A stretch of 64,000 bases of DNA from assembly GCA_017482385.1 (NCBI GenBank), contig JAFUNI010000024.1, positions 17,296-81,295 of the forward strand, given 5' to 3'. The notes under the pieces are model-generated. The model was not told the origin of the DNA. It was given only the letters and a program-made list of their open reading frames with translations, and searched no databases. This document shows positions 38,035 through 55,341 of this stretch, piece after piece. The stretch's first letter is position 1; each line of letters starts with the position of its first letter. The translations under genes and the position numbers were made by a program. Source of the DNA: Oscillospiraceae bacterium (GTDB lineage: Bacteria; Bacillota; Clostridia; Oscillospirales; Oscillospiraceae).

Positions 38035-38637
38035 TTACAGAGCCTTGTTGTTCAGCCGCTCACCCACAGCTCCGCCGGGATGGATCAGCGCAAACTGCTC
38101 AGCCTGGTAGCCGGTCTCTTCGATCACGGCGGCCTGCAGCGCATGGAAGATCATACACAGAGCGGTAGTGGAAGTAGTGCCCTGGGCGTTCCACTTGTCG
38201 GTTTCCTTGTTTACGTGCTGCTTCAGCACCACATCAGCGGCCTGGGCCAGGGGGGACTCCATATTCTCCGTGACGGTGATGATGGAAACACCCTTTGCCT
38301 TGCAGATATCCACGATGGGCAGCAGCTCCTTGGTCTTGCCGCCCCGGGATGCGAAGATCATCACATCGCCAGCCTGCAAAAAGCCGGTAGCGCCGTGAAC
38401 AGCTTCGGCGGGGGAGATGAACCGGGCAGGACGCTCGATGCAGCACATCAGGTGAGCCATATGCTGGCAAATGATGCCGGAGTGACCGCAGCCGCATGTG
38501 CCGATGCGGGGCGCCTTGCTCAGCAGGTCAACGGCCTTACCGAACTGCTCGTCGTCGATGTATGCGATCATTTCTTCAATGCAATCCCGCTCAATAACAT
38601 AAGCGTCCCGGATCGCTTGCAGACTTTCCTTCTTCAT
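38035..38637 (-). CDS. SIS-domain sugar isomerase/binding protein
   Basis: A 200-residue single SIS domain without CBS domains. Motifs GTCGCGHSG (about 48-56), FASRGGKTKELL and ITVTEN are the sugar-phosphate-binding loops of the KdsD/GutQ/PHI-type group. ATG 38637 follows AGGAGG. It is divergent from the first ceramidase-fold gene and shares a 227-base regulatory region with it, so it is probably part of the same pathway as an aldose-ketose isomerase or as a ligand-binding regulator. Confidence 0.85.
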   Translation of the reverse strand: MKKESLQAIRDAYVIERDCIEEMIAYIDDEQFGKAVDLLSKAPRIGTCGCGHSGIICQHMAHLMCCIERPARFISPAEAVHGATGFLQAGDVMIFASRGGKTKELLPIVDICKAKGVSIITVTENMESPLAQAADVVLKQHVNKETDKWNAQGTTSTTALCMIFHALQAAVIEETGYQAEQFALIHPGGAVGERLNNKAL

Positions 38638-38667
38638 AGAAAATCCTCCTAAGTTTATTTTTGGGTA

Positions 38668-38696
38668 ATTATAGCACAAAAGGAGGGACCCTTCAA
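38668..38696 (-). promoter_or_regulatory. Promoter of the SIS gene
   Basis: Minus strand -35 TTGAAG (38691-38696), 17-base spacer, -10 TATAAT (38668-38673). Confidence 0.78.
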
Positions 38697-38789
38697 GGTA
38701 TTTGCAAAAATTTTACAAACCGGCAGGAAATGAATTGCAAAAGAAAGAAAATAATTTGCCAAAAGAGGCGAAAAAACCCTTGGTATCAA

Positions 38790-38818
38790 TTGACAAATCC
38801 CCTTGCGGGGGTTATAGT
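38790..38818 (+). promoter_or_regulatory. Promoter of the ceramidase-fold gene cluster, with an internal dyad
   Basis: -35 TTGACA (38790-38795), 17-base spacer, -10 TATAGT (38813-38818). The spacer contains the dyad ATCCCC-TTGC-GGGGGT, placed where a repressor would block polymerase. A second imperfect dyad, GGTATGACTATAACTATGCC, follows at about 38825-38844 in the leader. Confidence 0.8.
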
Positions 38819-38864
38819 ATATAGGGTATGACTATAACTATGCCGAAAGGCGAGGTACATAGGT

Positions 38865-40241
38865 ATGAACACATTGCAAGTCGGCTTCAGCCGGGTCAAT
38901 ATCACCCCTCCTTTGGAAATCGATATTGTAGGATATTACCACGCCCGCTATGCCTCCGGCATACTGGATGAACTGGAGATCAATGCGCTGGCTCTTGCTG
39001 CCGGTGAGGACAAGGTGATCCTGCTCAGCGCAGACCTTTGTTATATCAGTAAGGGGCCCCAAATGCAAATTTGCGAGCATTTGCAGAAGGTCACAGGCCT
39101 TGGCAAGGATCAGATCTTTATCCATACCACCCATACCCATACCAGCCCCGTGGCCAATGCCAATGGCAGAGGCTTGTCGGTTTTCAGTAATGATGATCAG
39201 AAAGTTGCGCTGGCCCGGGAATACTTCCAGATTTTGCAGCGCAAATTTGCGGATGCCGCCCTGTTGGCGCTGAACGACCTGAAGCCTGCCAGGATGGGCT
39301 GGGCTGTGGGCAATGCGCCGAACATTGCCTTTGTCCGCCGTTTCCGCATGAAGGACGGCTCTGTCCGTACCAACCCCGGCGTGGGCAACCCGGAAATTCT
39401 CCATCCCATCGGTGATGTGGATGAGCGGGTGAATGTGCTCCGCTTTGACCGGGAAAATGCGGAAACCATTGTGCTGGCAAACTTTGGTTGCCATCCCGAT
39501 GTGGTGGGCGGCGATCTCATTTCCGGCGACTGGCCCGCACTGTACCGTCACCGCCTGGAAAAGGCCATGGACAATGTGAAAACCATCTTCTTCAACGGCG
39601 CTGAGGGCGATGTGAACCACGTGAATGTAAACGCCAAGGACGGCGATATGAACGATATGTTCCACGACTTTGACGATGTAGCCCGGGGCTACGGTCACGC
39701 CCGGCATATGGGCAATGTGATTGCCGGTGCAGTGATGCAGGTCTATGACAAAGTAAACTATGTGGATGTGGACAAGCTCCATAGCCGTGTGAAGACCGTT
39801 ACAGTACCTGCCAACAAGGGCAACCCTGAGGATCTGCCCCTGGCCCATAAGTATAATGACCTGCACAAGGCAGGTAAGGACAGTGAGATCCCCTTCAAGG
39901 GTATGCAGCTGACCACTGTGCTTGCCCAGTCGGCCCGAATGGTACGGCTGGAAAACGGCCCCGAAAGTTTTCAAATGGATGTTACCGGCGTGGTCATCGG
40001 TGATGTGGCAATTGTCGGTATTCCCGGTGAGCCCTTTAACAGAGTGGGCATCGGACTGAAGGAAGCGCCGGGTTGGAAGCTGGTTCTGCCCTGCTGTAAT
40101 GTAAACGGCGATGCCGGTTACTTCCCCATGCAGGACTCCTATGACGAGGGTGGCTACGAAGCCTGCTCCTGCAACTATAAAGCCGGAACTGCCGAACAAC
40201 TGGTGGCAGAAGGCATCACGCTTTTGAACTCCCTGCGCTGA
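38865..40241 (+). CDS. Neutral/alkaline ceramidase-fold hydrolase, paralogue 1
   Basis: A 458-residue protein like the N-terminal domain of neutral/alkaline non-lysosomal ceramidase (PF04734). Zinc ligands are kept: H90 and H92 in THTHTSP, H210 in FGCHPDVVGG, Glu in GIPGEPFN and Tyr/Glu near YDEGGYEA. The ceramidase catalytic-serine motif (GDVSPN) reads GDVNHVN at 249-255, so the Ser is absent. No signal peptide and no C-terminal Ig-like domain, so it is cytosolic and not a true ceramidase. It probably hydrolyses another amide (inference). First gene of the cluster; about 60 per cent similar by eye to the paralogue at 41.7 kb. Confidence 0.8.
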   Translation: MNTLQVGFSRVNITPPLEIDIVGYYHARYASGILDELEINALALAAGEDKVILLSADLCYISKGPQMQICEHLQKVTGLGKDQIFIHTTHTHTSPVANANGRGLSVFSNDDQKVALAREYFQILQRKFADAALLALNDLKPARMGWAVGNAPNIAFVRRFRMKDGSVRTNPGVGNPEILHPIGDVDERVNVLRFDRENAETIVLANFGCHPDVVGGDLISGDWPALYRHRLEKAMDNVKTIFFNGAEGDVNHVNVNAKDGDMNDMFHDFDDVARGYGHARHMGNVIAGAVMQVYDKVNYVDVDKLHSRVKTVTVPANKGNPEDLPLAHKYNDLHKAGKDSEIPFKGMQLTTVLAQSARMVRLENGPESFQMDVTGVVIGDVAIVGIPGEPFNRVGIGLKEAPGWKLVLPCCNVNGDAGYFPMQDSYDEGGYEACSCNYKAGTAEQLVAEGITLLNSLR

Positions 40242-40274
40242 CGGCGCAAAAAATACATATTCGTGAGGTAAATT

Positions 40275-40973
40275 ATGAGCAACTGTAAGATCAAGGCGCC
40301 TTTCTTTGAGATCGGCCCCAAGTCCTACCTGTACGGCGACCAGATCCTGGACCTGGCCAAGGCGGCTGATGCAGCTTCCGAGAAGTACGGCGTGGACATC
40401 CTGTTCACCTGCCCTGTTGTGGACATCCGCCGGGTAAAGGAGAACACCAAGCGCATTCACGTATTCGCACCCCATATGGATCCTATCCCCGTGGGCCGTG
40501 GCCTGGCAGATATCCTGCCCGAGTCCCTGGTTGCAGCCGGTGCTGAGGGCGTTATGCTGAACCATGTGGAAAAGCCCCTGGATTTTGATACCCTGGCTGC
40601 CACCATCAAGCGTGCTGACGAAGTGGGTCTGACCACCATCGTCTGCGCGGACTCTATGGCCGATGCTTCCAAGATCGCCACGCTGAACCCCGACATCATC
40701 GTTGCCGAGCCTTCCGAGCTGATCGGTACCGGTGTCAGCGTGGGCCCCGAGTATGTGGAAGCTGCCACCAAGTGCGTCAAGAGCGTTAACGAGAACATCC
40801 TGGTGCTGACCGCTGCAGGCATCGCAAACGGCACCGATGTATATAACACCATCATCGCCGGCGCTGATGCCACCGGTTCTTCCTCCGGCGTTGCCAAGGC
40901 AGAAGACCGCGCCGCTATGGTGGACGAGATGATCGCCGCAGTCCGCAAGGCCTGGGACGAGCGTCACGCTTAA
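40275..40973 (+). CDS. Triosephosphate isomerase-like protein
   Basis: A 232-residue TIM-family protein closest to the short archaeal type. MLNHVEKP holds the likely electrophilic His (H97) and VAEPSELIGTG the catalytic Glu (E145) plus phosphate loop; TAAGIANGTDV is the second phosphate loop. The N-terminal Asn-x-Lys of TIM is GPKSY (K16) with Asn replaced. The changes and context suggest an isomerase for another small phosphorylated sugar, in the way that TIM paralogues act on tetrulose phosphates in erythritol pathways; the true substrate is unknown. Confidence 0.78.
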   Translation: MSNCKIKAPFFEIGPKSYLYGDQILDLAKAADAASEKYGVDILFTCPVVDIRRVKENTKRIHVFAPHMDPIPVGRGLADILPESLVAAGAEGVMLNHVEKPLDFDTLAATIKRADEVGLTTIVCADSMADASKIATLNPDIIVAEPSELIGTGVSVGPEYVEAATKCVKSVNENILVLTAAGIANGTDVYNTIIAGADATGSSSGVAKAEDRAAMVDEMIAAVRKAWDERHA

Positions 40974-41013: not shown

Positions 41014-41640
41014 ATGGAATTCAAAGTTTATCAGAAAGAGCTGCAGCTGCAGAGCCGCGGCTGGATCCCCACCTTCCACGACATTTCCAAGGAAGTTATG
41101 GAGATCGTAAAGCAGTCCGGTGTTAAGAACGGTACTGTTGCTGTGGTTTCCCACCACACCACCTGCTCCGTCATGGTTCAGGAGTGCTCCCACGACATCG
41201 ACTCCTTCGACCTGGAGTTCCTGCAGCACGACCTGCTGGACATCATGCGCAAGATGATCCCCGACTACACCAACGAGGGCGATTACCGTCACCCCGGCCC
41301 CATCCACGCACAGTTCGGCCGCTATGTTGACGAGCCCGGCAACTACACTTCCATGAACACCGACGGCCACCTGCGCTCCGTGTTCTTCGGCCGTTCCGAG
41401 ACCCTGACCATCAAGGATGGCAAGCTGGACGGCGGTGAGTTCGCTCACATCTACTTCATCGACTGGGACCACGTCCGTGCCCGTCCCCGTCAGGCCAACA
41501 TCACCGTCATGGGTACCACTGAGGATGTAAACGATCGTAAGTGGAAGGGCGGCGAGACCATCAACACCCTGCGTAAGTTCACTCCCGAGGAGAAGGCTTA
41601 CGACCTGCACTACGACAACCAGCTGGAAGACCGCGTATAA
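41014..41640 (+). CDS. YjbQ/UPF0047 family protein
   Basis: A 208-residue member of the YjbQ (secondary thiamine-phosphate synthase-like) family: VVSHHTTCSVMVQE (about 45-58) with conserved His/Thr, then HIYFIDWDHVRARPRQ towards the C-terminus. It is longer than the usual ~135 residues because of an insert around 80-110. ATG 41014 is seven bases after GGAGG; a TTG in that site is rejected. Strong codon bias suggests high expression. The role in this catabolic cluster is unknown. Confidence 0.78.
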   Translation: MEFKVYQKELQLQSRGWIPTFHDISKEVMEIVKQSGVKNGTVAVVSHHTTCSVMVQECSHDIDSFDLEFLQHDLLDIMRKMIPDYTNEGDYRHPGPIHAQFGRYVDEPGNYTSMNTDGHLRSVFFGRSETLTIKDGKLDGGEFAHIYFIDWDHVRARPRQANITVMGTTEDVNDRKWKGGETINTLRKFTPEEKAYDLHYDNQLEDRV

Positions 41641-41655
41641 TCGGAGGAACATAGA

Positions 41656-42999
41656 ATGAACACTTTACAAGCTGGATACAGCAAAGTAAATGTGAATCCC
41701 ATGCTGGGCATTCCCATCAATGGCTATTTCAAACCCCGCTATGCCGAGGGTATTTTGGATGACCTGGAGATCGTTGCGGTGGCCTTGGCTTGCGGCGAGA
41801 CCAAAACCCTGCTGATGGCTATTGATAACCTTCATATCGGCACCAAACTGGTGAAGAATTATCAGGAAAGAATTTCTGAAAAGACCGGTATAGCCAAAGA
41901 GGCTATCTTCATTCACTCCACCCACACCCATACTGCCGGTACGCTGGATATGGACAGCAAAAATGAGCTGGTGCTGGAGTATACAGAGTTTGTAGGCAAG
42001 CGCTTTGTGGATGTTGCTGTATTTGCCCTTGAAGACCTGAAGCCTGCCAAGATGGGTTGGGCTGTGGGCAAGGCTCCTAACATTGCTTTTGTCCGCCGCT
42101 TCCGGATGAAGGACGGCAAGGTCCGCACCAACCCCGGTGTGGGCAACCCCGACATTCTGCACCCCATTGGCGACATTGACGATCGCGTGAATGTGATCCG
42201 CTTCGACCGTGAAGGCGCAGATACCATCGTGATGGCCAATATGGGCTGCCACCCCGACGTAGTGGGCGGCAACAAGATCTCTGCCGACTGGCCCGCTATG
42301 TTCCGCCGCCGTTTGGAGAAGTCTCTGGACAATGTGAAGGCGATCTTCTTCAATGGCGCACAGGGTGATATCAACCATGTGAACGTAAACGCCAAGGACG
42401 GCGACTTCAACGACACCTTCCACGACTTTGACGATGTGGATCGTGGCTATGGCCATTCCCGCCATATGGGTAATGTGATGGCCGGTGCTGTCCTGCAGGT
42501 TTATGACAAGGTCAACTACCGGGATGTGGATACCATTCGCTTTGCCTATAAGGTCAGCGAACTGCCCTCCAATATGCCCAAGCCCGAGGATATGCCCCTG
42601 GCCCGTAAGTATCATGAGCTGCACCTTGCAGGCAAGGACAGCGAGATCCCCTTCAAGGGTATGGAGCTGACCACCGTGGTTGCCGAGGCTGGCCGTATGG
42701 TTCGCCTGGAGCACGGTCCCGAGACCTTCCCCTTGGGTCTTAGCGCTGTGACCATTGGCCCGGTTGCTCTGTTGGGTATCCCCGGTGAGCCCTTCAACGG
42801 CATTGGCCGCGGTATCAAAGAGGCTGCGGGTTGGGAAGTGATCATGCCCTGCTGCTTGACCAACGGTTCTGAGGGTTACTTCCCCATGCAGGACTCTTAT
42901 GACGAGGGCGGCTACGAGGCCCGCTCCTCCCGTTATAAGGCAGGTACTGCCGAGCTGATCATCGAAGAGGGTAAGGCTCTGCTTGACACCCTGCGCTAA
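41656..42999 (+). CDS. Neutral/alkaline ceramidase-fold hydrolase, paralogue 2
   Basis: A 447-residue second copy of the ceramidase-fold protein. It shares long identical blocks with paralogue 1 (APNIAFVRRFRMKDG, VNVNAKDGD, the C-terminal YFPMQDSYDEGGYEA), including the zinc His residues in THTHTAG and GCHPDVVGG and the same replacement of the ceramidase serine motif (GDINHVN). The two copies lie 1.4 kb apart, separated by the TIM-like and YjbQ genes, so they are probably a duplication that diverged for two related substrates or two subunits. GGAGG precedes ATG 41656. Confidence 0.8.
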   Translation: MNTLQAGYSKVNVNPMLGIPINGYFKPRYAEGILDDLEIVAVALACGETKTLLMAIDNLHIGTKLVKNYQERISEKTGIAKEAIFIHSTHTHTAGTLDMDSKNELVLEYTEFVGKRFVDVAVFALEDLKPAKMGWAVGKAPNIAFVRRFRMKDGKVRTNPGVGNPDILHPIGDIDDRVNVIRFDREGADTIVMANMGCHPDVVGGNKISADWPAMFRRRLEKSLDNVKAIFFNGAQGDINHVNVNAKDGDFNDTFHDFDDVDRGYGHSRHMGNVMAGAVLQVYDKVNYRDVDTIRFAYKVSELPSNMPKPEDMPLARKYHELHLAGKDSEIPFKGMELTTVVAEAGRMVRLEHGPETFPLGLSAVTIGPVALLGIPGEPFNGIGRGIKEAAGWEVIMPCCLTNGSEGYFPMQDSYDEGGYEARSSRYKAGTAELIIEEGKALLDTLR

Positions 43000-43011: not shown

Positions 43012-44151
43012 ATGACCGCAATCATCAATGCTACATTGGTCATGCGTGACCATTTGATCCCCAACGGCGTACTGCTGATGGAAAATGGCAAGATCACAGC
43101 TTTTGGCGAAAGCCGGAAAATGGAGATCCCGGAAGGCTGCGAGATCATCGATGCCGAAGGAAAGTACGTTGGCCCCGGCTTTGTGGATATCCATACCCAC
43201 TCCGACGGCAAGGTTTTCTTCTATGATGATCCCAAGTCCGTGGGCCATCATTTGAAGCACGGTACTACCACCATTTTGGCAGCGCTGTATTTCAGCATGA
43301 CCACAGAGGAATTTGTGGATGCCATGGGCAAGATCCGGGAAGCCATGAAAGACCCGGATTGCAAGAACCTGTGCGGCATCTACATGGAAGGCCCTTATAT
43401 GAACCCCAAGTTCGGCTGCGACAAAGAGCATAACCCCTGGGTTGGCCCTGTGGACAGAGAAAAGTATCAGCCCATCATCGATGCCGGCTGGGACTTGGTA
43501 AAGGTTTGGGGCCTGGCTCCCGAGCGGGAGAATATCGTGCAGTTTGTGCAGGATGTAAAGGCTAAGAACCCTGCAGCGGTGTTCTCCGTTGCCCACTCTG
43601 AGGCTTCTCCTCAGGAGGTGGAGGCACTGATGCCTTATGGCCTGCGGATCGGTACCCACCACACCAATGCCACCGGTGACCGCATTTTTTACCCGGAAGT
43701 CCGTGGCGTTTGCGTAGACGAAGCGGTTAACTACAACCGGGAGATCTATGCAGAGCTGATCTGCGACAGTATGGGTATCCATGTAGATCCTTATATGCTG
43801 CGTCTGGTGCGGAGGATCAAGGGTGACGACCGTATCATTCTGATTTCCGATGCCTATGCCTGCGACGGCCCGATTCCCGAGGGCTATGACGGTGTGGACG
43901 ATATCAACTTTGACTGGGAAGGCGAGATCGCCGGTTCCAAGCTGACGCTGGATATTGCCTGCCGTAATGCTTTGAAGCATTTGGGCGCTTCCGTTGTGGA
44001 TGTGTTCCGCTTTGCTTCTTATAACCCTGCTATGGCAGTAGGGTTCTATGACCGCGGTGAGATCGCGGTTGGAAAACGTGCTGACCTGGTGATCGTTGAT
44101 CACTGGATGAAAGTAAACAAAGTAATTTTCGAAGGAGAGACCGTACAATGA
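43012..44151 (+). CDS. NagA-like amidohydrolase (N-acyl amino sugar phosphate deacetylase-like)
   Basis: A 379-residue amidohydrolase of the NagA group. Metal motifs are HTH at 61-63, MEGPYMN, VAHSEAS, THHTNATGD and ISDAYACD; all main catalytic residues seem present. It differs clearly from the NagA encoded at 36 kb, notably in the active-site loop HHTNATGD instead of the HLFNAM type. So it probably removes an acyl group from a different amino sugar phosphate. It overlaps the NagB-like gene by 4 bases. Confidence 0.83.
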   Translation: MTAIINATLVMRDHLIPNGVLLMENGKITAFGESRKMEIPEGCEIIDAEGKYVGPGFVDIHTHSDGKVFFYDDPKSVGHHLKHGTTTILAALYFSMTTEEFVDAMGKIREAMKDPDCKNLCGIYMEGPYMNPKFGCDKEHNPWVGPVDREKYQPIIDAGWDLVKVWGLAPERENIVQFVQDVKAKNPAAVFSVAHSEASPQEVEALMPYGLRIGTHHTNATGDRIFYPEVRGVCVDEAVNYNREIYAELICDSMGIHVDPYMLRLVRRIKGDDRIILISDAYACDGPIPEGYDGVDDINFDWEGEIAGSKLTLDIACRNALKHLGASVVDVFRFASYNPAMAVGFYDRGEIAVGKRADLVIVDHWMKVNKVIFEGETVQ

Positions 44152-45119
44152 AAGATTTCATTACCGATCCCGCAACCAAATTTGACTTCCAGCCCCACGA
44201 CTTTGTTCCCTTCAAGGACAAGAAGGTCTGTGAGTATGTCCGTAGCCTGAGCGGCAAGGATCTGGAAAAGCGCGAGCCCTGGTGGCATCCCGAGTTCGAT
44301 GTTAAGGTTATCATGAACCCCCATCCCATTCTGATCGCTACCCTGTTCTCCCGTCTGAAGGCAGCTTCCGAGGCTGGCAAGACCTTCACCATGATCCTGG
44401 GTAACCCCGAGCCCGACACCTACATTCCTCTGGCTCAGCTGATCAACTACTTCCAGGTTGACTGCTCCAAGGTTCACCTGTTCGCCGAGGACGAGTGGGC
44501 TGATGAGAACGGCAACATTGCTCCCATCACCTACGAGGCTGGCTTTGCTCACTCCATGATCAAGTACTTCTACTATCAGATCGACGAGAAGTTGCGTATG
44601 CCTATGGAGAATGTCCACTTCCCCACCAATGAGAACATCAAGGACTACTCCAAGATCATCAACGACATCTCCGAGGGTGGCGCTGATATCGCTTCTACCT
44701 CTCCCGGATGGGCTGGCCACATGGCTTTCGTGGATCCTATCCCCGAGTTCATCGGCTCCGGCGATGTTGAAGAGTGGCTGAATCAGCCCGCTCAGATCGT
44801 CAAGCTGCACCCCATGACCATTATGCAGAACTCCCTGAACGGTACCTTCGGTCAGTCCGGCGACATCGCAAATGTTCCTCCCTGCGCCGCTACCATCGGA
44901 CCTCTGGATGTTATGCGTGCTAAGGAGCGTATCGAGGTTCACGCACTGGCTACCTGCGGTACTTTCTCCTCCTGGCAGAGAATGACCTCCCGTCTGTGCA
45001 CCCACGGCCCCATCACTCCCTACCTGCCCTCCTCCATGCTGCAGACCAAGAAGACTCAGGTCTACATCAGCGAAGAGCTGGCTGCTCCCTTCGAGTGCTG
45101 GGAGAAGGTCGGTTACTAA
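44148..45119 (+). CDS. NagB-like sugar-phosphate deaminase/isomerase family protein
   Basis: A 323-residue protein with the NagB/6-phosphogluconolactonase fold: ILGNPEPDTYIPLAQLI (near 85-101) corresponds to the phosphate-binding turn and FAEDEWADENG to the catalytic-Asp segment of NagB (FNMDEY type). It is longer than NagB (about 260) and carries a strong divergence in the C-terminal half, so glucosamine-6-phosphate may not be its substrate. Translationally coupled to the NagA-like deacetylase, the natural preceding step. Highly biased codons. Confidence 0.75.
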   Translation: MKDFITDPATKFDFQPHDFVPFKDKKVCEYVRSLSGKDLEKREPWWHPEFDVKVIMNPHPILIATLFSRLKAASEAGKTFTMILGNPEPDTYIPLAQLINYFQVDCSKVHLFAEDEWADENGNIAPITYEAGFAHSMIKYFYYQIDEKLRMPMENVHFPTNENIKDYSKIINDISEGGADIASTSPGWAGHMAFVDPIPEFIGSGDVEEWLNQPAQIVKLHPMTIMQNSLNGTFGQSGDIANVPPCAATIGPLDVMRAKERIEVHALATCGTFSSWQRMTSRLCTHGPITPYLPSSMLQTKKTQVYISEELAAPFECWEKVGY

Positions 45120-47254: not shown

Positions 47255-47255
47255 T

Positions 47256-49400
47256 ATGGCTATTGTGATTGAAAATTCCCTGTTCCGCCTGACGGTAGGG
47301 GAGGATTGTATTGCCCAAAGCCTTGTGTGTAAGGCAAACGGTGAGGAATGCTTAGCTAAGGACAAAAAGCTTCCGCTGTTTTCTGTGACCCAGGAGCGGC
47401 CCTTTAATAATGAGGTAAAGCTCTCCACCCTGTGCAAGCGCACAACTTATCCTGCTAACTCTCTCCGGCGGGAAGGGGATAAGCTGATTGTAGGTTTCTC
47501 TGTTGCCCCCTATGAGGCTGTGGTGCAGGTGCAGGAGAAAGAAAGTTATGTAAACTTCTGCCTGGACAGCTTTATCAATCACCCCACGGACTATGGCCAT
47601 CTGTGTATGGATAAACCCCCAGCAACGGAGTTTTGCCTGCTGCAGCTGCCTGTGGCTGACCGGGAGAATTTCGGCCAGTGGCTGAATGTAAGCTGGGACG
47701 AGAATACTGCGGTCAATGTGCTGGCATCTGACCCCCGCACCCTGATTGATGCAGAAAAGCGGGAGGACTATCATATTATGCATGCCACCGTCCGCCGGGA
47801 TATTCGCCTGCAAGGCCCCGGCGTAGCGCTGATCGTTGCCCCCAAGGAACAGCTTTTGGATTGCGTTGCCGCGGTGGAGGAGGATTTTGACCTGCCCCGT
47901 GGCGTGGAAAGTCGCCGCAATCCCTGCACCAACCAAGCCATCTATTACACCTGGGAGCTGTACCCGGACACGGTAGAGGAGCATATTCGCTATTGCAAGG
48001 CCGGCGGCTACAAGCTGATGCAGGTATATTTTACCAGTATTTATAAGTCTGCTCAGTGCTATGGCCTGTGCGGAGATTATGATTATAATGACCACTACCC
48101 CAACGGTGCAGAGGATTTGAAGAAGGTCCTCTCCCGGCTGCGGGAGGAGGGCATTATCCCCGGCCTGCATCTTTTGCAGCCCCATATTGGTCTGAAGAGC
48201 CGGTATGTGACCCCGGTTGCTGACCACCGTCTCCATTTGATCCAGCACTATACCTTGGCAAAGCCACTGGGTAAAGAGGATACCACGGTTTATGTGGAGC
48301 AGGATCCCTTTGCTGCGCCCAGGGCAGATAAGCGCCGTGTGCTGCAGTTCGGCGGTGAGCTGATTACCTACGAGGGTCGCACGGAAGAACGGCCCTACTG
48401 CTTTACCGGCTGTACCCGCGGTGCATACGATACCACTGTCACAGAACACCCTCTGGGTCAAATCGGCGGTGTGCTGGATGTAAGTGAGTACAGCGCTGTC
48501 AGCGCCTATCTTGACCAAAACACCAGCCTTGCCGACGAGGTATCCCAGAAGCTTGCGGATACCTATAACCTGGGATTTGGGTTTATATACTTCGACGGCT
48601 CTGAGGGCGCCAATGCGCCCCACGCATATCATATCCCCAATGCTCAATACAGCGTGTATAAGAAGCTGCAGACTGCACCCCTGTTCTGCGAGGGTGCGGC
48701 TAAGGCCCATTTCAGCTGGCATATGCTCAGCGGTGCCAATGCCTTTGACATCTTCCGTCCGGAAGTGTTCAAGGAAATGATCGGTGTTCATCCCATTCCC
48801 GAAGCCATTGAGATGAAAAAGGACTTTACCCGGGTGAATTTCGGTTGGTGGCAGTTCTGGGGCGGCACAGGTACGCAGGCCGACCAGTTTGCCTACAGCA
48901 GCGCCAAGGCCGCTGCCTGGGATTGCCCGGCGACTATGATCTCCGACCGAAAATTCTTTGGAGAGAATCCTCGGCTCTATGACATTTTGGAAGTTCTGCG
49001 CCGCTGGGAGGATGCCCGCACAAGCGGCTTCTTCACCGCCGAGCAGAAAGAGCAGATGAAGAACCTGGAGCAGGAGCACATTCTGCTGATCAATGAGCAG
49101 AAGGAATATGAGCTGCAGCCTTATTTCCGGGTAGCGCTGTCTGAGGATTTCCCCATCACTGCCTATACCTTTACCCGGGGTGGCGAAAGCTGGGCGGTCT
49201 ACTGGCACAGATCCGGTGAGGGCAAGCTGAAATTGCCTGTAAATGCCGAGGAAATCCAGCTTTATGAGGAGCTTTGGCAGCCGTCGGTTTCTTTGGGAAA
49301 TGGCTTAGCTGTCCTGCCTGCGGACAAGTGCCGGTATGTAAAAACTACTCTGCCGATGGAAAAACTTGTGGAAGTTTTCCAAAAAGCAGAACTGCTATAA
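47256..49400 (+). CDS. Large glycoside hydrolase-like protein, family not assigned
   Basis: A 714-residue cytosolic protein. Residues 1-200 look like an all-beta domain, and about 220-580 a TIM barrel of clan-D flavour: YYTWELYPDTVEEHI, YKLMQVYFTSIYKS, GIIPGLHLLQPHIG and FGFIYFDGSEGANAP, where the last Asp or Glu pair could be catalytic. A small beta domain ends the chain. I cannot match a numbered GH family. ATG 47256 follows GGAGA and lies one base after the CBM9-like stop. Together they may cleave a glycoside taken up by the ABC importer. Confidence 0.65.
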   Translation: MAIVIENSLFRLTVGEDCIAQSLVCKANGEECLAKDKKLPLFSVTQERPFNNEVKLSTLCKRTTYPANSLRREGDKLIVGFSVAPYEAVVQVQEKESYVNFCLDSFINHPTDYGHLCMDKPPATEFCLLQLPVADRENFGQWLNVSWDENTAVNVLASDPRTLIDAEKREDYHIMHATVRRDIRLQGPGVALIVAPKEQLLDCVAAVEEDFDLPRGVESRRNPCTNQAIYYTWELYPDTVEEHIRYCKAGGYKLMQVYFTSIYKSAQCYGLCGDYDYNDHYPNGAEDLKKVLSRLREEGIIPGLHLLQPHIGLKSRYVTPVADHRLHLIQHYTLAKPLGKEDTTVYVEQDPFAAPRADKRRVLQFGGELITYEGRTEERPYCFTGCTRGAYDTTVTEHPLGQIGGVLDVSEYSAVSAYLDQNTSLADEVSQKLADTYNLGFGFIYFDGSEGANAPHAYHIPNAQYSVYKKLQTAPLFCEGAAKAHFSWHMLSGANAFDIFRPEVFKEMIGVHPIPEAIEMKKDFTRVNFGWWQFWGGTGTQADQFAYSSAKAAAWDCPATMISDRKFFGENPRLYDILEVLRRWEDARTSGFFTAEQKEQMKNLEQEHILLINEQKEYELQPYFRVALSEDFPITAYTFTRGGESWAVYWHRSGEGKLKLPVNAEEIQLYEELWQPSVSLGNGLAVLPADKCRYVKTTLPMEKLVEVFQKAELL

Positions 49401-49439: not shown

Positions 49440-49468
49440 TTGACATTCCGGGCGATTTATACTAAACT
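49440..49468 (+). promoter_or_regulatory. Internal promoter of the second half of the cluster
   Basis: -35 TTGACA (49440-49445), 17-base spacer, -10 TAAACT (49463-49468), 47 bases before the mutarotase start. The gap 49401-49515 has no terminator. Confidence 0.75.
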
Positions 49469-49515
49469 ATATGTTGATGTGGAACGCTTGCAGTGAATGC
49501 ATAGGAGGTGGCGAT

Positions 49516-49845
49516 GTGGGAGTCTTGCGATTCGGTCAGCTGGGTAAGCTGAAGCCGGAAAAAATCGAGGAGTATTGCGCCTTGCACGCCAATCCCTGGC
49601 CGGAAGTGCTGGAAACCATCAAGCAGTGCAATATGCGGAATTATTCCATTTATCTCCATGGCGATCTGGTCTTTGCTTACTTTGAGTATGTGGGTGAGGA
49701 TTTTGATGCCGATATGCAGAAGATGGATAACGACCCCATTACCAAAAAATGGTGGGAGCATACGCACCCCTGCTTTATAGAATATGCAATCCACCCGGCA
49801 AGTCAGTTTTACCACGATATGAAACCGATTTTTTACTATGAATGA
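49516..49845 (+). CDS. L-rhamnose mutarotase family protein
   Basis: A 109-residue protein of the RhaM/DUF718 family, a dimeric alpha-beta barrel that interconverts sugar anomers. FGQLGKLKPEKIEEYCALHANPWPEV holds the conserved His/Pro region (given here as two family blocks, FGQLGKLKPEKIEEYC and LHANPWPEV), then YSIYLHGDLVFAYFEY and KKWWEHTHPC with the substrate His. The usual length is about 104. GTG 49516 is chosen for AGGAGG seven bases upstream. No rhamnose catabolic genes are near, so the substrate may be another deoxy or amino sugar. Confidence 0.85.
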   Translation: MGVLRFGQLGKLKPEKIEEYCALHANPWPEVLETIKQCNMRNYSIYLHGDLVFAYFEYVGEDFDADMQKMDNDPITKKWWEHTHPCFIEYAIHPASQFYHDMKPIFYYE

Positions 49846-49858
49846 GGAGGAACCCCCA

Positions 49859-50215
49859 ATGGCCTACGGCAAAAAAGTTTGGATTTTCCCGGATGCAGAG
49901 CTGCCCCCCGAGGGCGTGAACCTGATTCCCGGTCACGAATCCGTCATCATCACCAATGTCAGCGACAAGGTGGCAAATGTGAAGTTCACCCTGATCTACA
50001 CCGATAAAGACCCCGTCAGCTTCACCACCCAGGTGGAAGCAATGCGTGTTCGCTGCCTGCGTACCAATAAAGAGTGCGACTTCGGTAAGTACACCGCTAA
50101 GTTCGACGAGCAGTACGCCATTATGCTGGAGAGCGATCAGCCCATCGTTGCCCAGTACGGCCGCGCCGAACCCAGAGAGGTCAATTTCTACATCAATGCC
50201 GGTTACTGCGAGTAA
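49859..50215 (+). CDS. ASRT-family (sensory rhodopsin transducer-like) protein
   Basis: A 118-residue all-beta protein matching the family of Anabaena sensory rhodopsin transducer: KKVWIFPDAELPPEG at the start, ESVIITN, VEAMRVRCLRTN in the centre and PIVAQYGRAE near the end. No rhodopsin is encoded here. Homologues occur in sugar catabolic loci and are thought to bind small ligands or DNA. ATG 49859 is nine bases after GAGGAGG. A role as a cytosolic ligand-binding factor for the pathway is possible but unproven. Confidence 0.8.
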   Translation: MAYGKKVWIFPDAELPPEGVNLIPGHESVIITNVSDKVANVKFTLIYTDKDPVSFTTQVEAMRVRCLRTNKECDFGKYTAKFDEQYAIMLESDQPIVAQYGRAEPREVNFYINAGYCE

Positions 50216-50257: not shown

Positions 50258-51430
50258 ATGGCAAGAATTTGCATCCCCGATCACGAGTATAAAGAAAGAG
50301 TAAAGCGCTGCGCTGCGATCCTGGTCCGCGAAAAGCTGGACGTGCTGATCGTTAACGGCAACGAGGCTGACTACGCTAACCCCCGTTACTTCTCCGGCTT
50401 CTGGCCCCTGTTCGAGCGCGCCGGCGTGGCTATTGCTGCCAACGGCGAGGCTGCTCTGATGGTAGGTCCCGAGTCCTCCATCTTCGGTGCTGACCGCAAC
50501 AAGCTGGACAAGATCTTCACCCTGCTTGCTTACCGTGAAGGCGCTGACCCCGCTTACCCCGAGGCTAAGCCCGACACCTTCCACGATGTCTTCAAGGCTA
50601 TCGGCGTGACCGGCAAGAAGATCCGCATCGGTGTGGCATCCTTCCTGGATACCTCCGTTACCATCTTCAACGCCATCAAGGACGCTTTCCCCGAGGCTGA
50701 GATCGTTGACGCCGGCAAGATCATGGTCGAGCTGCGCCGCATCAAGTCCGAGAACGAGCTGGCTTGCCTGCGTGAAGGCTACCGTATTGCTGACCTGGCA
50801 ACCCAGCAGGTTATGAAGGAAATCCGTCCCGGCATGACCGAGCTGCAGGCTGTTGGTATCGCACAGCGCGTTGTTTACGAGAACGGCGCCGAGTACGAAG
50901 GCCTGCCCATGTACGTGTTCTCCGAGGCCTCTACCCGTCACGCTATCTCCCGTTCTTCCTACCGTGAGTTCCAGAAGGGCGACATCGTGCAGCTGAACCT
51001 GTCCGCTAAGATCGACGGCTACTCCGCTGCTATCGGTTACCCCATCTGCCTGGGCACTCTGGAAGGCCAGCGCCGCGACATCGTGCAGTTCTGCCGCGAG
51101 GCTCACACCTGGTCCGAGAAGCAGGTCAAGGCCGGCGTTTGGGCTGCTGACATTGCTAAGGGCTTCTACAAGTACTATGTTGACCACGGCTACGAGAAGA
51201 ACTATGTTTACGGTCCTCTCCACGGCACCGGTATCATCGAGGTGGAAGCACCCTGGTGCGAGACTTCCTCTACTTACAACCTGGAGCCCAACATGACCTT
51301 CCAGGTGGACACCTACATCTCCTCCGACACCTTCGGCGTCCGTTGGGAGAAGGGTATCGCAGTTAAGGAAGGCGGCTACGAGGTTCTCAGCCCCGAGATC
51401 CCCGAGGTCTGCCCCGAGATCCACTTCTAA
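50258..51430 (+). CDS. M24-family creatinase-like protein lacking most metal ligands
   Basis: A 390-residue pita-bread protein with a creatinase-type N-terminal domain (1-140) and an M24 C-terminal domain. In metallopeptidases five ligands bind two metals; here the two Asp positions read N and A (QLNLSAKIDGYSAAIGYP), the first Glu position is Asp (QVDTYIS), and only the His of LHGTGI and the last Glu (RWEKG) fit. It therefore resembles metal-free creatinase more than prolidase and may hydrolyse a C-N bond of a guanidine or amide. AGGAGG precedes the ATG. Strongly biased codons suggest abundance. Confidence 0.82.
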   Translation: MARICIPDHEYKERVKRCAAILVREKLDVLIVNGNEADYANPRYFSGFWPLFERAGVAIAANGEAALMVGPESSIFGADRNKLDKIFTLLAYREGADPAYPEAKPDTFHDVFKAIGVTGKKIRIGVASFLDTSVTIFNAIKDAFPEAEIVDAGKIMVELRRIKSENELACLREGYRIADLATQQVMKEIRPGMTELQAVGIAQRVVYENGAEYEGLPMYVFSEASTRHAISRSSYREFQKGDIVQLNLSAKIDGYSAAIGYPICLGTLEGQRRDIVQFCREAHTWSEKQVKAGVWAADIAKGFYKYYVDHGYEKNYVYGPLHGTGIIEVEAPWCETSSTYNLEPNMTFQVDTYISSDTFGVRWEKGIAVKEGGYEVLSPEIPEVCPEIHF

Positions 51431-51490: not shown

Positions 51491-52228
51491 ATGCAAATGC
51501 TTGAAATGTTTTACGATCAGATCCAGGACGCTGTGGATCGCAAGGTTCCCTTCGTGATCCCCATCGGTACAATGGAGTACCACGCAAAGCACGCCTCCTG
51601 CGGTACTGACACTTTGGTTGTCACCGGCTGCCTGCGGGAACTGGAAAAGGAAAAGGAAATCGTGGTTTGCCCTCCCATTTGGTACGGTGTGGCTTCCTAC
51701 GCAGTTTGCGAGCCCAAGCCCAGCCACTTCCACGTGGACGAGGATGCTTATGTAAATTACCTGTACTACATTCTGAAGTCTATGATCGATGCCGGTCATA
51801 AGAATATCTACTTAGTACCCCACCACCAGACCGAGGGCGCAGGCTTGATGCCCATGACCATCGCCTGCCACAAGGCCGCCAAGAAGGTGACTATGGAGTA
51901 TATGGAAGAAAAGCTCGGCAAGGGCTGGTGGGGCAGCGATGCCTACGCAAGCTACTACGAGGACATGGGCTCCGAGGACGATCCCTTCTCCTATATTAAG
52001 GTGATTCCTCTGATCGGCGCCGATGCGCAGATCAAGTGCGGTGGTTTCGACCACGCAGGCAAGTGGGAGACCTCCTTGCTGATGGGCACTTACCCCGAGC
52101 TGGTGGATCTGAAGCGCTGCAAGGACAATACCGAGTGGTTTGCCAAGAGCGCCGTGGAGGCTTCTGCTGAGACCGGCAAGCACATGGTGGAGTGCACCCT
52201 GGAATGGCTCCGGGAAGCTATTCAGTAA
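51491..52228 (+). CDS. Creatininase-family amidohydrolase
   Basis: A 245-residue creatininase-family protein. IPIGTMEYHAKHASCGTD (residues about 24-41) contains the metal-binding Glu, His and Asp, YLVPHHQTEG the next His, and FDHAGKWETSLLMG the C-terminal Glu. Relatives open cyclic amides such as creatinine or a formamide in pterin and riboflavin pathways. Being next to a creatinase-like gene, it suggests two successive C-N bond cleavages on one substrate. ATG 51491 lies nine bases after AAAGGAG. Confidence 0.84.
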   Translation: MQMLEMFYDQIQDAVDRKVPFVIPIGTMEYHAKHASCGTDTLVVTGCLRELEKEKEIVVCPPIWYGVASYAVCEPKPSHFHVDEDAYVNYLYYILKSMIDAGHKNIYLVPHHQTEGAGLMPMTIACHKAAKKVTMEYMEEKLGKGWWGSDAYASYYEDMGSEDDPFSYIKVIPLIGADAQIKCGGFDHAGKWETSLLMGTYPELVDLKRCKDNTEWFAKSAVEASAETGKHMVECTLEWLREAIQ

Positions 52229-52247
52229 GCTGAATATTACGGTTTTG

Positions 52248-52279
52248 GGGAACGGCCTGTGTGCCGTTCCCTCTTTTTT
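52248..52279 (+). terminator. Terminator of the enzyme part of the cluster
   Basis: Stem GGGAACGGC (52248-52256) with GCCGTTCCC (52263-52271), then a TCTTTTTT run. It separates the enzymes from the transporter operon. Confidence 0.88.
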
Positions 52280-52396: not shown

Positions 52397-52425
52397 TTGA
52401 CAAATGGAGGGCAAGGGTGTATAAT
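52397..52425 (+). promoter_or_regulatory. Consensus promoter of the ABC importer operon
   Basis: -35 TTGACA (52397-52402), 17-base spacer, -10 TATAAT (52420-52425): a perfect consensus site. The tract 52280-52396 before it is AT-rich with no other feature. Confidence 0.92.
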
Positions 52426-52472
52426 CAGCCCATCAATTGATTCACTAAGAATCAGCAAAGGAGAGTATGATT

Positions 52473-53489
52473 ATGAAAAAAGTATTAGCACTTGTTCTGG
52501 CAGCTGTGATGCTGTTTGGCTTGGCTGCTTGCACCGCAAAGCCTGCAGATCCTGCAGCAAGCGACCCCACCGCTACCGAAGCTACCAAGGCACCTGCCAA
52601 GGATAACTTTACCATCGGTATCTGCCAGTTTATTCCCCACCCCGCACTGGACCAGGCTACCAAGGGTTTCAAGGAAGCTGTTACCAAGGAGCTGGGCGCA
52701 GACAAGGTTACCTTCAATGAGCAGAACGCAGCCGGCGAGGCTTCCAACTGCTCCACCATCGTCAATGGCCTGGTTTCCTCCAAGGTTGACCTGATTATGG
52801 CAAACGCTACTCCCGCTGTGGCAGCAGCTTACAATGCAACCGAAGTGATCCCCATTCTGGGTACTTCCGTTACAGAATACGGCGCTGCTCTGGGTATCAA
52901 GGACTTCACCGGTACTGTAGGCGCCAATATTTCCGGCACCTCCGACCTGGCTAACCTGGACAAGCAGGCTCAGATGATTTTGGATTGGGTTCCCACCGCC
53001 AAGAAGGTCGCTCTGCTGTACTGCTCCGGTGAGGCTAACTCCCAGTTCCAGGTCGATAAGGTTGCCGAGTACCTGAAGGGCAAGAATATTGAGACCAAGA
53101 TGTTCGGCTTTGCCGATACCAGCGATATGATGGCTGTTACCACCTCTGCCTGCGACTATGCTGACGTGATCTATGTTCCCACCGATAATGTTGTTGCAAA
53201 CAATGCTACCGCTATCGACAGCATTGCCCGCGCAGCCAAGAAGCCCATCATCGCCGGTGAGTCCGGTATCTGCTCTGGCTGCGGTATTGCAACTCTGTCC
53301 ATCGATTACTACGATCTGGGCTATGCCACCGGTATGATGGCTGTGAAGATCCTGCGGGACGGCGCTGACATCACCAAGATGCCCATCGAGTATGCACCCA
53401 AGGAAACTGCTCTTTATAACGAAGAGATCTGCAAGGCCCTGGGTATCACTCCTCTGGAAGGCTATGAAAAGCTGGAAGTGGCAGAGTAA
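52473..53489 (+). CDS. ABC transporter substrate-binding lipoprotein (TrpX/ABC_sub_bind type)
   Basis: A 338-residue exported lipoprotein: hydrophobic signal with lipobox GLAAC (C20), Ala/Thr/Pro linker to about 40, then a two-lobed binding domain of the ABC_sub_bind (PF04392) group, with IGICQFIPHPALDQATKGF and LIMANATPAVAAAYNAT in the first lobe. Relatives serve TrpXYZ-type importers of tryptophan-like or uncharacterised solutes. ATG 52473 has ten-base spacing to AAGGAG; an ATG two codons earlier is only four bases away. It has its own perfect promoter. Confidence 0.88.
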   Translation: MKKVLALVLAAVMLFGLAACTAKPADPAASDPTATEATKAPAKDNFTIGICQFIPHPALDQATKGFKEAVTKELGADKVTFNEQNAAGEASNCSTIVNGLVSSKVDLIMANATPAVAAAYNATEVIPILGTSVTEYGAALGIKDFTGTVGANISGTSDLANLDKQAQMILDWVPTAKKVALLYCSGEANSQFQVDKVAEYLKGKNIETKMFGFADTSDMMAVTTSACDYADVIYVPTDNVVANNATAIDSIARAAKKPIIAGESGICSGCGIATLSIDYYDLGYATGMMAVKILRDGADITKMPIEYAPKETALYNEEICKALGITPLEGYEKLEVAE

Positions 53490-53516
53490 TAAAAGTGAAT
53501 AATATTTGATTTCTTC

Positions 53517-53546
53517 AGTGCAGCCGCTGAAATCAGCGGCTGCACT
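53517..53546 (+). other. Strong intercistronic hairpin between binding protein and permease
   Basis: AGTGCAGCCGCTGA (53517-53530) is perfectly complementary to 53533-53546, with only AA between, and no T run follows. Such hairpins after a binding-protein gene commonly protect its mRNA from 3' decay and give it an excess over the membrane parts. Confidence 0.8.
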
Positions 53547-53593
53547 TAAGGTCTGTTTATAGATAATGATATCCTTTGGAGGACTTTCCCTTT

Positions 53594-54559
53594 ATGGAAC
53601 GCTTAATGAATTTCGGCAGTGCGCTGCCGGGTGTTTTGTCCCTGGGCCTGATCTGGGGCGTTATGGCCATTGGCCTTTACATTACTTATAAAATTTTGGA
53701 ACTGTCCGACTTGACGGTTGACGGCTCTTTCTGTACCGGCGGTGCTGTGTGCATCGTGATGATGGCTATGGGCCAACCCACTTGGCTGGCGATGGTCTGC
53801 GCATTCCTGGCCGGTATGCTTACCGGCGCGGTTACGGGTTTTTTGCATACTACCTGCAAGATCCCGGCTATTTTGGCCGGAATTTTGACCCAGTTGGGTT
53901 TGTGGACGATCAATATGATCATTATGGGCATAGAAAAGGGCGAGCTGATATCCACCCTTACCATTCCGGCCCGGAACAGTAAACCCCTGGTGTCCGCGCT
54001 GTTTTTGAGTACAGCTTTGGACGGCACCAAGCCCATTTACCTGTATCCCCCCATTGTCCTGGTGGTGATCACTGCCTGCATCATCGGTATTTTGTACTGG
54101 TTCTTCGGTACGGAGCGGGGCGCATCCATCCGTGCCACCGGTGCCAATGAGCATATGGCAAGAGCCCAGGGCATCAACACCAACGCCAACAAGATGATCG
54201 GCCTCATGCTGGCCAACGGCCTGGTGGCGCTGTCCGGTTCTCTGTTCGCCCAGTACAACGGCAACAGCGAAATCAATATGGGCCGTGGCGCGATCGTTAT
54301 CGGTCTGGCTGCCATCATCATCGGTGATGTGCTGTTCGGCAAACTGTTTAAGAACTTCGCACTGAAGCTGCTGGCTGTCAGCCTGGGTGCTATCGTCTAC
54401 TATCTGGTCATCCAGGCAGTTCTGACCCTGCTGCAGGTGGATTCTCAGTATCTGAAGTTGATGTCCGCTGCCATTGTGGCCATCTTCCTGACTGTACCCA
54501 ATTTGGGCGGCCACGGATTCAAAAAGCATAAGAAGGAGGTGCCGGTATGCTCGAAATAA
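53594..54559 (+). CDS. ABC transporter permease (TrpY type, BPD_transp_2)
   Basis: A 321-residue membrane protein with about eight to ten helices. LGLIWGVMAIGLYITYKILELSDLTVDGS is split across the first helix and the loop that typifies the family; RATGANEHMARAQGIN (about 190) is the cytoplasmic coupling segment contacting the ATPase. ATG 53594 lies 11 bases after GGAGG. It overlaps the ATPase gene by 13 bases. Confidence 0.9.
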   Translation: MERLMNFGSALPGVLSLGLIWGVMAIGLYITYKILELSDLTVDGSFCTGGAVCIVMMAMGQPTWLAMVCAFLAGMLTGAVTGFLHTTCKIPAILAGILTQLGLWTINMIIMGIEKGELISTLTIPARNSKPLVSALFLSTALDGTKPIYLYPPIVLVVITACIIGILYWFFGTERGASIRATGANEHMARAQGINTNANKMIGLMLANGLVALSGSLFAQYNGNSEINMGRGAIVIGLAAIIIGDVLFGKLFKNFALKLLAVSLGAIVYYLVIQAVLTLLQVDSQYLKLMSAAIVAIFLTVPNLGGHGFKKHKKEVPVCSK

Positions 54560-55341
54560 TCGATATTCATAAAACTTTTAATGCCGGTACCATCAACGAA
54601 AAGCGCGCTCTGCAGGGCGTGAGCCTGCATTTGAAGCCCGGCGATTTTGTCACCGTTATCGGTGGCAACGGCGCAGGTAAGAGTACCCTTATGAACTCTG
54701 TGTCCGGCGCATACCCCGTAGACGAAGGAAAGATCCTCATTGACGGTGTGGATGTGACCCACCTTCCGGAGCATAAGCGGGCTCAGTATATCGGCCGTGT
54801 GTTCCAGGATCCTATGATGGGTACTGCCGCTACTATGCAGATCGAAGAAAATCTGGCATTGGCTGCCCGCCGTGGTAAGATCCGCACACTGCGTACCGGC
54901 ATCACCAAGAAGGAGCGGGCGCTCTATAAGGAGCAGCTGGCTACCCTGGGCCTGGGTTTGGAAGAGCGAATGACCGCCAAGGTCGGTCTGCTTTCCGGCG
55001 GCCAGCGCCAGGCACTGACCCTGCTGATGGCAGCCCTGCAGAAGCCCAAGCTGCTGCTTTTGGACGAGCATACCGCCGCCCTGGACCCCAAGACCGCAGC
55101 CAAGGTGCTGGAGACTACTCAGCGCATCGTGGAAAGAGATAATTTGACCACCTTGATGATCACCCATAATATGCGTGATGCCATCACCTACGGCAACCGT
55201 CTGATTATGATGTACGACGGCCGCATCGTGGTTGATGTGTCCGGCGAGGAGAAGAAGAAACTCACTGTGGAGCAGCTTTTGGCCCTGTTCAGCAAGGCCA
55301 GCGGCTCCGACGAGGTAAACGACAAGCTCCTGCTGTCTTAA
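54547..55341 (+). CDS. ABC transporter ATP-binding protein (TrpZ type)
   Basis: A 264-residue ATPase: Walker A GGNGAGKST at about 39-47, signature LSGGQRQAL and Walker B LLLLDEHTAALDP, with His where many ABC proteins have Pro. It energises the importer with the preceding permease. The start overlaps the permease gene by 13 bases after AAGGAGG. The operon ends at a strong terminator, so the whole 38.8-55.3 kb array is bounded on the right here. Confidence 0.92.
   Translation: MLEIIDIHKTFNAGTINEKRALQGVSLHLKPGDFVTVIGGNGAGKSTLMNSVSGAYPVDEGKILIDGVDVTHLPEHKRAQYIGRVFQDPMMGTAATMQIEENLALAARRGKIRTLRTGITKKERALYKEQLATLGLGLEERMTAKVGLLSGGQRQALTLLMAALQKPKLLLLDEHTAALDPKTAAKVLETTQRIVERDNLTTLMITHNMRDAITYGNRLIMMYDGRIVVDVSGEEKKKLTVEQLLALFSKASGSDEVNDKLLLS

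Follow-up and report, generated by a model that had tools for sequence, protein, structure and literature searches.

Gene content of the locus

The window considered here is the whole 64,000-nucleotide stretch that was analysed from the genome of an Oscillospiraceae bacterium (2.39 Mb; the source genome below), and it ends where its contig (C18) ends. Positions 38035-55341 of this window hold 17 plausible genes, and the subject of this report is the part between 38035 and 47254, a conserved core that consists of genes for a SIS-domain protein, two ceramidase-like proteins (CerA and CerB), a protein resembling triose-phosphate isomerase (TPI), YjbQ, a NagA-like and a NagB-like protein, an FGGY kinase and a CBM9 protein. 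This gene set is apparently both conserved and undescribed, as the initial annotation of the stretch had proposed, and it may serve the breakdown of an N-acetylated amino sugar. Literature searches retrieved no description of the set; most subscription journals were outside their coverage, and absence is not proven by them.

The SIS gene (38035..38643, minus strand) encodes a KpsF/KdsD-like sugar-phosphate isomerase (PF01380, 2e-20) that scores 125 bits with KpsF, below the cut-off; all the other genes of the array are on the plus strand. CerA (38865..40241) is a neutral-ceramidase-like hydrolase that exceeds the PF04734 cut-off (36 vs 32.1 bits), and is followed by the TPI-like isomerase of archaeal type (TIM; 40275..40973; PRK04302, 185 bits, cut-off 132), the long subtype of YjbQ/UPF0047 (41014..41640; PF01894, 2.8e-25) and CerB (41656..42999), which has no Pfam match in spite of its 65% identity to CerA. 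Further downstream lie a NagA-like putative N-deacetylase (NagA2; 43012..44151; nagA, 159 bits, under the cut-off of 225.65), a NagB-like putative deaminase or isomerase with remote NagB matches (44148..45119; 25.8 bits, NCBIfam cut-off 326), a xylulokinase-like FGGY kinase (45189..46637; XylB, 358 bits, under the cut-off of 380) and the core-associated CBM9_2 protein (46649..47254; PF16011, 2e-30). Pfam and NCBIfam thereby bore out most families named in the initial annotation, namely SIS, CerA, TPI, NagA-like, remote NagB-like, FGGY, CBM9_2, RhaM, M24, creatininase and a Trp-type ATP-binding cassette (ABC) importer, and added two that it had missed, YjbQ/UPF0047 and, at 49838-50215, ASRT. 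For its two ceramidase-fold proteins there is a family match in the case of CerA and, in that of CerB, sequence identity to CerA.

Conservation of the core

With the NagB-like protein as the anchor, at least 552 relatives were found, and the 80 best of them were taken as loci; many of these are short, and they are related to one another rather than independent trials. The control set comprised 43 loci found with the M24 (creatinase-fold) protein (18), a 718-amino-acid protein (8) or ceramidase homologues (17), from which L034 was left out as it carries the module (L and G numbers denote loci and genomes). A NagA-like gene is near the NagB-like gene in 62/80 loci against 0/43 controls (1/44 when L034 is included). 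CBM9, TIM, YjbQ, SIS, FGGY and FSA-like genes occur in 23, 22, 21, 20, 20 and 9 of the 80 loci, respectively, and in none of the 43 controls, while ceramidase-like genes, counted at ≥30% identity, are present in 27 of the 80. The association of the core genes is beyond chance. Across 394 genomes of the order, a close NagB-like match (E <1e-40, a cut-off set after a gap between 1e-43 and 1e-27 was seen) is found in 17 and a YjbQ match in 32; 12 genomes have both, 5 only the former and 20 only the latter (Fisher p 4e-11, uncorrected for kinship).

According to tblastn coordinates, the NagA-like gene adjoins the NagB-like gene upstream in 50 of the 80 loci, is one gene-length off in 7, lies downstream in 4 and is not adjacent in 11, with 8 loci cut by a contig end. 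The corresponding numbers from open reading frame (ORF) calls are 47, 8, 4, 12 and 9; overlapping calls hide the NagA-like gene in L174 and L177, and some unlabelled ORFs in the locus maps are likely spurious antisense frames. A ceramidase-like gene is directly 5′ of the NagA-like gene in 15/50 assessable loci and is hence a frequent, not a constant, partner. Individual loci illustrate the range of arrangements. L101 reads SIS-CerA-TIM-YjbQ-CerB-NagA2-NagB-FGGY-CBM9 and continues into flanking YitT/flavoprotein genes, L100 is without CerA, the 718-amino-acid gene and RhaM, L121 has NagA2-NagB-FGGY-TIM-SIS-YjbQ-FSA as a single run, and L141 has FGGY-TIM-SIS-YjbQ-FSA-NagA2-NagB.

Other gene sets related to the core were also observed. 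The source genome itself carries a second, diverged set (L095, G000:C31) with YjbQ, TIM, FGGY, NagA-like, CBM9 and NagB-like genes and no SIS. Another diverged locus, L088, which is perhaps an oxidative variant, has on one strand FGGY, NagB-like, NagA-like and ceramidase-like genes together with genes for an SDR protein, an HpcH/HpaI aldolase, an aldo-keto reductase and a Gfo/Idh protein. Genes of the E1 and E2 2-oxoacid dehydrogenase type are near the core in L108, L125, L135, L154 and L159, and in L081 E3 is present as well.

Residues of the NagA-like and NagB-like proteins

Eight rows were aligned for each of the two proteins, with the NagB-like residues read against NagB of Escherichia coli. 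In the latter, we take D72 and H143 to serve proton transfer and ring opening, D141 to be catalytic, and the TGGT loop, R172 and K208 to bind phosphate. D72 and H143 are kept in 8/8 NagB-like rows, and E148 is replaced by D in all of them. The Gly-rich TGGT phosphate loop and R172 are lost in every row, and the position of K208 is occupied by Q or L throughout. The NagA-like rows all keep the metal ligands and catalytic residues E131, H195, H216 and D273, together with H251; at the position of R227, presumably the phosphate-binding Arg of NagA, the window has Phe and the eight rows read F, M, K, K, R, R, R and K. Since phosphate-binding residues are lost, the predicted substrate of both enzymes is a sugar without a 6-phosphate, for which the argument is strong in the NagB-like protein and weak in the NagA-like one.

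The ceramidase-like proteins share with neutral ceramidase (PF04734; 4wgk, to which CerA aligns with E 1.8e-4) an HTH motif and conserved Glu/Tyr columns. They differ from it in being short (447-458 amino acids) and in having no signal peptide by eye, and a lipid would be an unlikely substrate. As an anchor for the core, ceramidase homologues were rejected: 17 of the 18 long loci found with CerB are without NagA-like, NagB-like, TIM, YjbQ, SIS and FGGY genes, the exception being L034. The family is seemingly much expanded in some genomes of the order, with 68 first-look candidates in G186 (6 of them scored), and the copies are mostly unlinked to the core.

The kinase and isomerase block

FGGY kinases phosphorylate ketoses and polyols. 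The TPI-like protein, which is present in addition to a separate canonical TPI in the source genome, keeps the catalytic Lys, His and Glu in 16/16 aligned rows, and the Asn of its N-x-K motif is Gly in 11/16, the window included; the five rows that keep the Asn are those from phosphotransferase system (PTS)/aldolase loci. Outside the source genome, TIM and YjbQ are neighbours in 11/11 loci fetched in a scan of the phylum. As a side observation, conservation of this pair extends across the phylum, with PTS-polyol, aldolase or HxlB surroundings (L243-L253), and may help in finding what UPF0047 does. Specifically, it is accompanied by PTS-Gat or Gut genes and a class II aldolase in some loci, by an HxlB-type SIS protein and ribulose-phosphate epimerase in L243 and L244 (HxlB in L244, 205 bits, cut-off 160), and in L246 it is part of a run ABC-FGGY-Zn dehydrogenase-TIM-YjbQ-SIS. 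The SIS fold is shared by KpsF/KdsD and HxlB isomerases; the window protein resembles the former, but stays under the KpsF/KdsD cut-offs and has 202 amino acids, into which CBS domains would not fit.

In the order, 41 YjbQ places were covered by 38 loci, of which 31 have TIM, 25 SIS and 18 FGGY. A NagB-like gene is present in 7 of these 38 loci, a gene for a FucI/AraA-like aldose isomerase in 10, and both in none; in some sister loci the isomerase gene lies upstream of the same FGGY-SIS-TIM-YjbQ block. This modestly suggests that the isomerase replaces the NagA-like and NagB-like proteins there and that one kinase block receives its ketose from either front end. The FSA-like (TAL-like) proteins of relatives have Tyr131 of FSA rather than the Phe of transaldolase in 15/15 rows and are therefore probably aldolases. 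As for YjbQ/UPF0047, a review (PMC7954711) lists it as of unknown function and reports that an E. coli pdxB mutant no longer requires vitamin B6 when YjbQ is overproduced, through an unknown reaction; this hints that YjbQ may act on small sugar phosphates.

Genes outside the core

The accessory gene downstream of CBM9 (47244..49400) encodes the protein of 718 amino acids, possibly a glycosidase. It has no useful match in Pfam, NCBIfam or the PDB, so that its earlier label ‘glycosidase-like’ is unproven. As a candidate core member it was rejected, as core genes are found in 0/8 loci of its homologues and the gene is absent from both L100 and L101. It is followed by the L-rhamnose mutarotase-like RhaM (49516..49845; PF05336, 2e-26, scored from an ATG at 49471), which probably starts at the GTG at 49516, behind AGGAGG, and which occurs in 0/80 other NagB-like loci.

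The next three genes encode an ASRT-family putative sugar-binding protein (49838..50215; PF07100, 2.8e-20), an M24/creatinase-fold hydrolase (50258..51430; PF00557, PF01321) and a creatininase-family hydrolase (51491..52228; PF02633, 1.3e-28). They form a recurrent module that is separate from the core. Among the 18 loci anchored on M24 (L212-L229), 13 have creatininase and 9 ASRT, and none has a NagB-like, NagA-like, TIM, YjbQ, SIS or FGGY gene; an AraC-like gene shares the locus in 7. Conversely, the 80 NagB-like loci include 2 with M24 (L100, L169), 3 with creatininase (L100, L164, L169), 1 with ASRT and 1 with the importer's binding protein. The amidine- or creatinine-type chemistry that the initial annotation envisaged thus falls outside the conserved core. 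Moreover, M24 metallopeptidases have five metal ligands, and three of the five, two Asp and one Glu, are replaced in the M24 protein when its alignment to 2zsg is read by eye; it is therefore probably not a metallopeptidase. Its creatinase fold agrees with the earlier ‘creatinase-like’ label, but Xaa-Pro peptidases outscore creatinase (80.6 vs 47.7 bits). The creatininase-family protein reaches 55.6 bits with NCBIfam creatininase (cut-off 235), and the nearest NCBIfam model is IolN (60.6 bits, cut-off 245).

Sugar-linked ASRT/ASRAH operons (De Souza 2009, PMC2739507) likewise place a cytosolic ASRT protein beside sugar enzymes; they differ from the window, where ASRT is accompanied by M24 and creatininase, and in the main text of that paper words starting with ‘creatinin’ or ‘peptidase’ occur 0 times.

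The array ends with an importer, composed of a TrpX-type substrate-binding protein (52467..53489; PF04392, 1.2e-50), a permease (53576..54559; PF02653) and an ATPase (54547..55341; PF00005). A Trp-type ABC importer is confirmed, whereas its assignment to TrpXYZ itself is not, TrpX reaching 202 bits where 390 are required. Homologues of the binding protein at 38-58% identity are found in 25 other genomes (26/61 of the family, the source genome included), and the importer is separate from the core. Because these homologues are common in the family, where the search of the order gave only four other NagB-like matches (26-27% identity), little can be concluded about the substrate from the binding protein. 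The comparison of neighbourhoods that had been proposed as a check therefore gave a divided answer: the core is kept across loci, but ASRT/M24/creatininase and the importer are conserved separately.

A consensus scan, which is weak evidence, gave 21 promoter-like sites, compared with 14.4 +/- 3.7 after shuffling, and 25 terminator-like ones, compared with 19.8 +/- 4.1. The five promoter-like sites with at least 10/12 matches, each of them a consensus match only, are just 5′ of SIS (38668..38696, minus strand, 10/12), CerA (38790..38818, 11/12), CerB (41612..41641, 10/12), RhaM (49440..49468, 10/12) and the binding protein (52397..52425, 12/12), and a terminator-like hairpin, again a consensus match only, follows creatininase (52247..52272). 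These suggest three transcription units, from CerA to the 718-amino-acid gene, from RhaM to creatininase, and the importer, with breaks at 49440 and 52247/52397; no terminator-like site was found by the scan between the first two. The description of the locus as one bounded array thus fares poorly, as L100 and L101 show it to be modular and the consensus sites point to internal breaks. Searches for RNA families and tRNAs gave 0 matches.

Just upstream of the array, the interval 32629-37243 has genes that resemble NahK, GalE and ROK-type proteins, labelled by eye only (the ROK-type one, 34739-36115, has no Pfam or NCBIfam match), as well as a conventional NagA (299 bits, cut-off 225). This is perhaps an operon of the lacto-N-biose type.

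A proposed route and its alternatives

We assign a probability of about 45% to the reading that the core breaks down an N-acetylated amino sugar in the cytosol, with phosphorylation last. Its reactions, their order and the sugar are predicted from gene content, conservation and the loss of phosphate-binding residues. The NagA-like protein would take acetate off the free, unphosphorylated N-acetyl amino sugar, and the NagB-like protein would then free ammonia in converting the amino aldose to a ketose. This ketose would be the substrate of the FGGY kinase. The resulting ketose phosphate would have its carbonyl shifted, or would be epimerised, by the TPI-like, YjbQ and SIS proteins, and would leave the route by way of an aldolase (FSA-like in some relatives) or central metabolism. 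The ceramidase-like proteins would probably contribute further N-deacylation or a related hydrolysis. The N-deacylation foreseen in the initial annotation is probably right, given the catalytic residues of the NagA-like protein and the GH123 genes beside a few relatives; deamination is possible only, with D72/H143 kept and D141 lost.

Clues to the sugar come from neighbouring genes, among which selected proteins were scanned with Pfam; BLAST searches of all 80 loci were made with GH123, GH78, GH20-like and a small number of further queries. Hexosaminidase-type GH123 genes are near the NagB-like gene in L103 and L152 (partial in L151) and rhamnosidase-type GH78 genes in L154, L157, L158, L166, L110 and L140; L105 has one GH20b-like protein, below the cut-off. 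The former points to an N-acetylhexosamine, the latter to a rhamnose-type sugar.

The canonical GlcNAc (N-acetylglucosamine) route of E. coli has in common with the preferred reading a deacetylation followed by a deaminating isomerisation, with a NagA homologue that has the same catalytic residues and a remote homology in NagB. It differs in that the NagB-like protein of the array is without the phosphate-binding residues, in the extra TIM, SIS and YjbQ genes, and in the kinase, which is of the FGGY ketose type and would act after rather than before these steps.

Several findings weigh against the proposed route. D141 is gone from 8/8 NagB-like rows, so deamination by this protein is not assured, and the R227 column of the NagA-like alignment, which is gappy there, has Arg in 3/8 and Lys in 3/8 rows. 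Most of the NagB-like loci are without TIM, SIS, YjbQ or FGGY in the stretch covered, which is often short; the 11 loci with a non-adjacent NagA-like gene count on the same side, as does the window array itself, which holds no FSA-like gene. The exchange of front ends is open to similar objections. Their non-overlap is weak (1.8 joint loci expected, chance of none 0.09, or 0.04 among the 31 TIM loci), 21/38 YjbQ loci have neither, and 2/98 loci found with NagB-like proteins, both from one genome (L083 = L156), have the isomerase (in L083 at 12174-13520), and this genome has NagA-like and NagB-like genes too. The isomerase label itself comes from Pfam scores of 28.2 and 24.8 bits, under the threshold of 29.3, and from weak PDB matches, the best with E 0.028. 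Finally, GH78 is commoner where no NagA-like gene is adjacent (4/11 vs 2/61, p 0.004, post hoc), which fits a neutral sugar.

This last point is the best argument for a rather unlikely alternative, in which the NagB-like protein simply interconverts the aldose and ketose forms of a neutral sugar (L-rhamnose or another 6-deoxy L-sugar, for instance), whereas the target of the NagA-like protein is some other compound or an acyl decoration that has to come off first. The retention of D72 and H143 with the loss of D141, the FucI/AraA-like isomerase in some sister loci and RhaM within the window would all agree with it; but RhaM does not recur in the other NagB-like loci, GH123 is close to the core in L103 and L152, and the NagA-like gene stands beside the NagB-like gene in 61/72 loci uncut by a contig end. 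A conventional Nag-type route is quite improbable. Here a kinase encoded elsewhere would phosphorylate the sugar first, the phosphate would be held differently, and the FGGY kinase would serve another sugar; H251 of the NagA-like protein and an Arg or Lys at the R227 position in 6/8 rows can be cited in its favour, but the phosphate loop, R172 and K208 are lost in 8/8 NagB-like rows, and FGGY is found near the NagB-like gene in 20/80 loci vs 0/43 controls.

It is also unlikely that the FGGY, TIM, YjbQ, SIS and aldolase arm converts a four-carbon tetrulose phosphate to erythrose-4-phosphate as in erythritol catabolism of Brucella, the upper genes then yielding the tetrulose, a proposal which agrees with the preferred route save for the carbon number. 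The usual substrates of FucI/AraA-like isomerases are pentoses or hexoses, and to our knowledge there is no obvious natural amino tetrose. We take the Brucella kinase EryA to be an FGGY kinase. According to PMC5992420 and PMC11508834, Brucella uses EryA, the TPI paralogue EryH and the isomerase EryI, with an exit by Tal/Fba. The array thus shares with it a polyol or ketose kinase, a TPI paralogue and an aldose-ketose isomerase, and the run in L246 and the Asn to Gly change in TIM would be in keeping with such an arm. It differs in having SIS rather than an RpiB-type isomerase, YjbQ, and a NagA/NagB-like upper arm; among the family matches of the array genes there is no EryB dehydrogenase, EryC racemase or RpiB-type EryI, and the SIS protein of L244 is an HxlB hexulose isomerase. 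The parallel would be one of kind, not of membership. Very improbable, by comparison, is the view that the whole array, 17 genes with SIS at one end and the importer at the other, is a single pathway whose substrate is an amino sugar or cyclitol with a guanidino or amide group. The stretch between CerA and creatininase does have its genes in one direction and closely spaced, and the closeness of creatininase to IolN could be seen in the same light, but the M24 loci have no core genes, L101 is without the entire second part, and the importer is widespread in the family without the core. The earlier proposal of a single substrate for all genes is accordingly not upheld.

Distribution and host animals

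Record titles name a host for 53/80 loci, and it is always a herbivore (goat, sheep, roe deer, water deer, water buffalo, yak or horse); the remaining 27 titles (SIG and RUG series and one MGBC record) give none. NagB-like proteins in genomes of other families are 95% (G278), 94% (G186), 91-93% (pieces in G224), 89-95% (pieces in G164) and 86% (G254) identical to that of the window; in G234 and G141 the identity is 72-73%. The ordinary TPI of the source genome has 54-58% identity in G278, G186, G224, G164, G254 and G141 and 65% in G080 and G046, and as a query it found no match in G234. Within its own family, the search of the order gave only four other NagB-like matches, at 26-27% identity. 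Because NagB-like identities of 86-95% stand beside TPI identities of 54-58% in the same five genomes, the NagB-like gene has likely spread by horizontal transfer; strong conservation of the protein could add to its high identity.

Implications

A broader and more doubtful proposal is that of a mobile pathway of the herbivore gut, in which deacetylation and deamination precede phosphorylation, front ends can be swapped, and YjbQ is a sugar-phosphate isomerase or epimerase working with the TPI-like protein. If this is true, there would be a second logic of amino-sugar use, deaminating first and phosphorylating afterwards, and it would explain a cassette that Clostridia from the rumen and hindgut of deer and livestock have in common. 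It would also give YjbQ/UPF0047 a testable physiological role. Should the front ends prove interchangeable, the same ketose would be expected from two unrelated enzymes, which would make the question of the substrate tractable.

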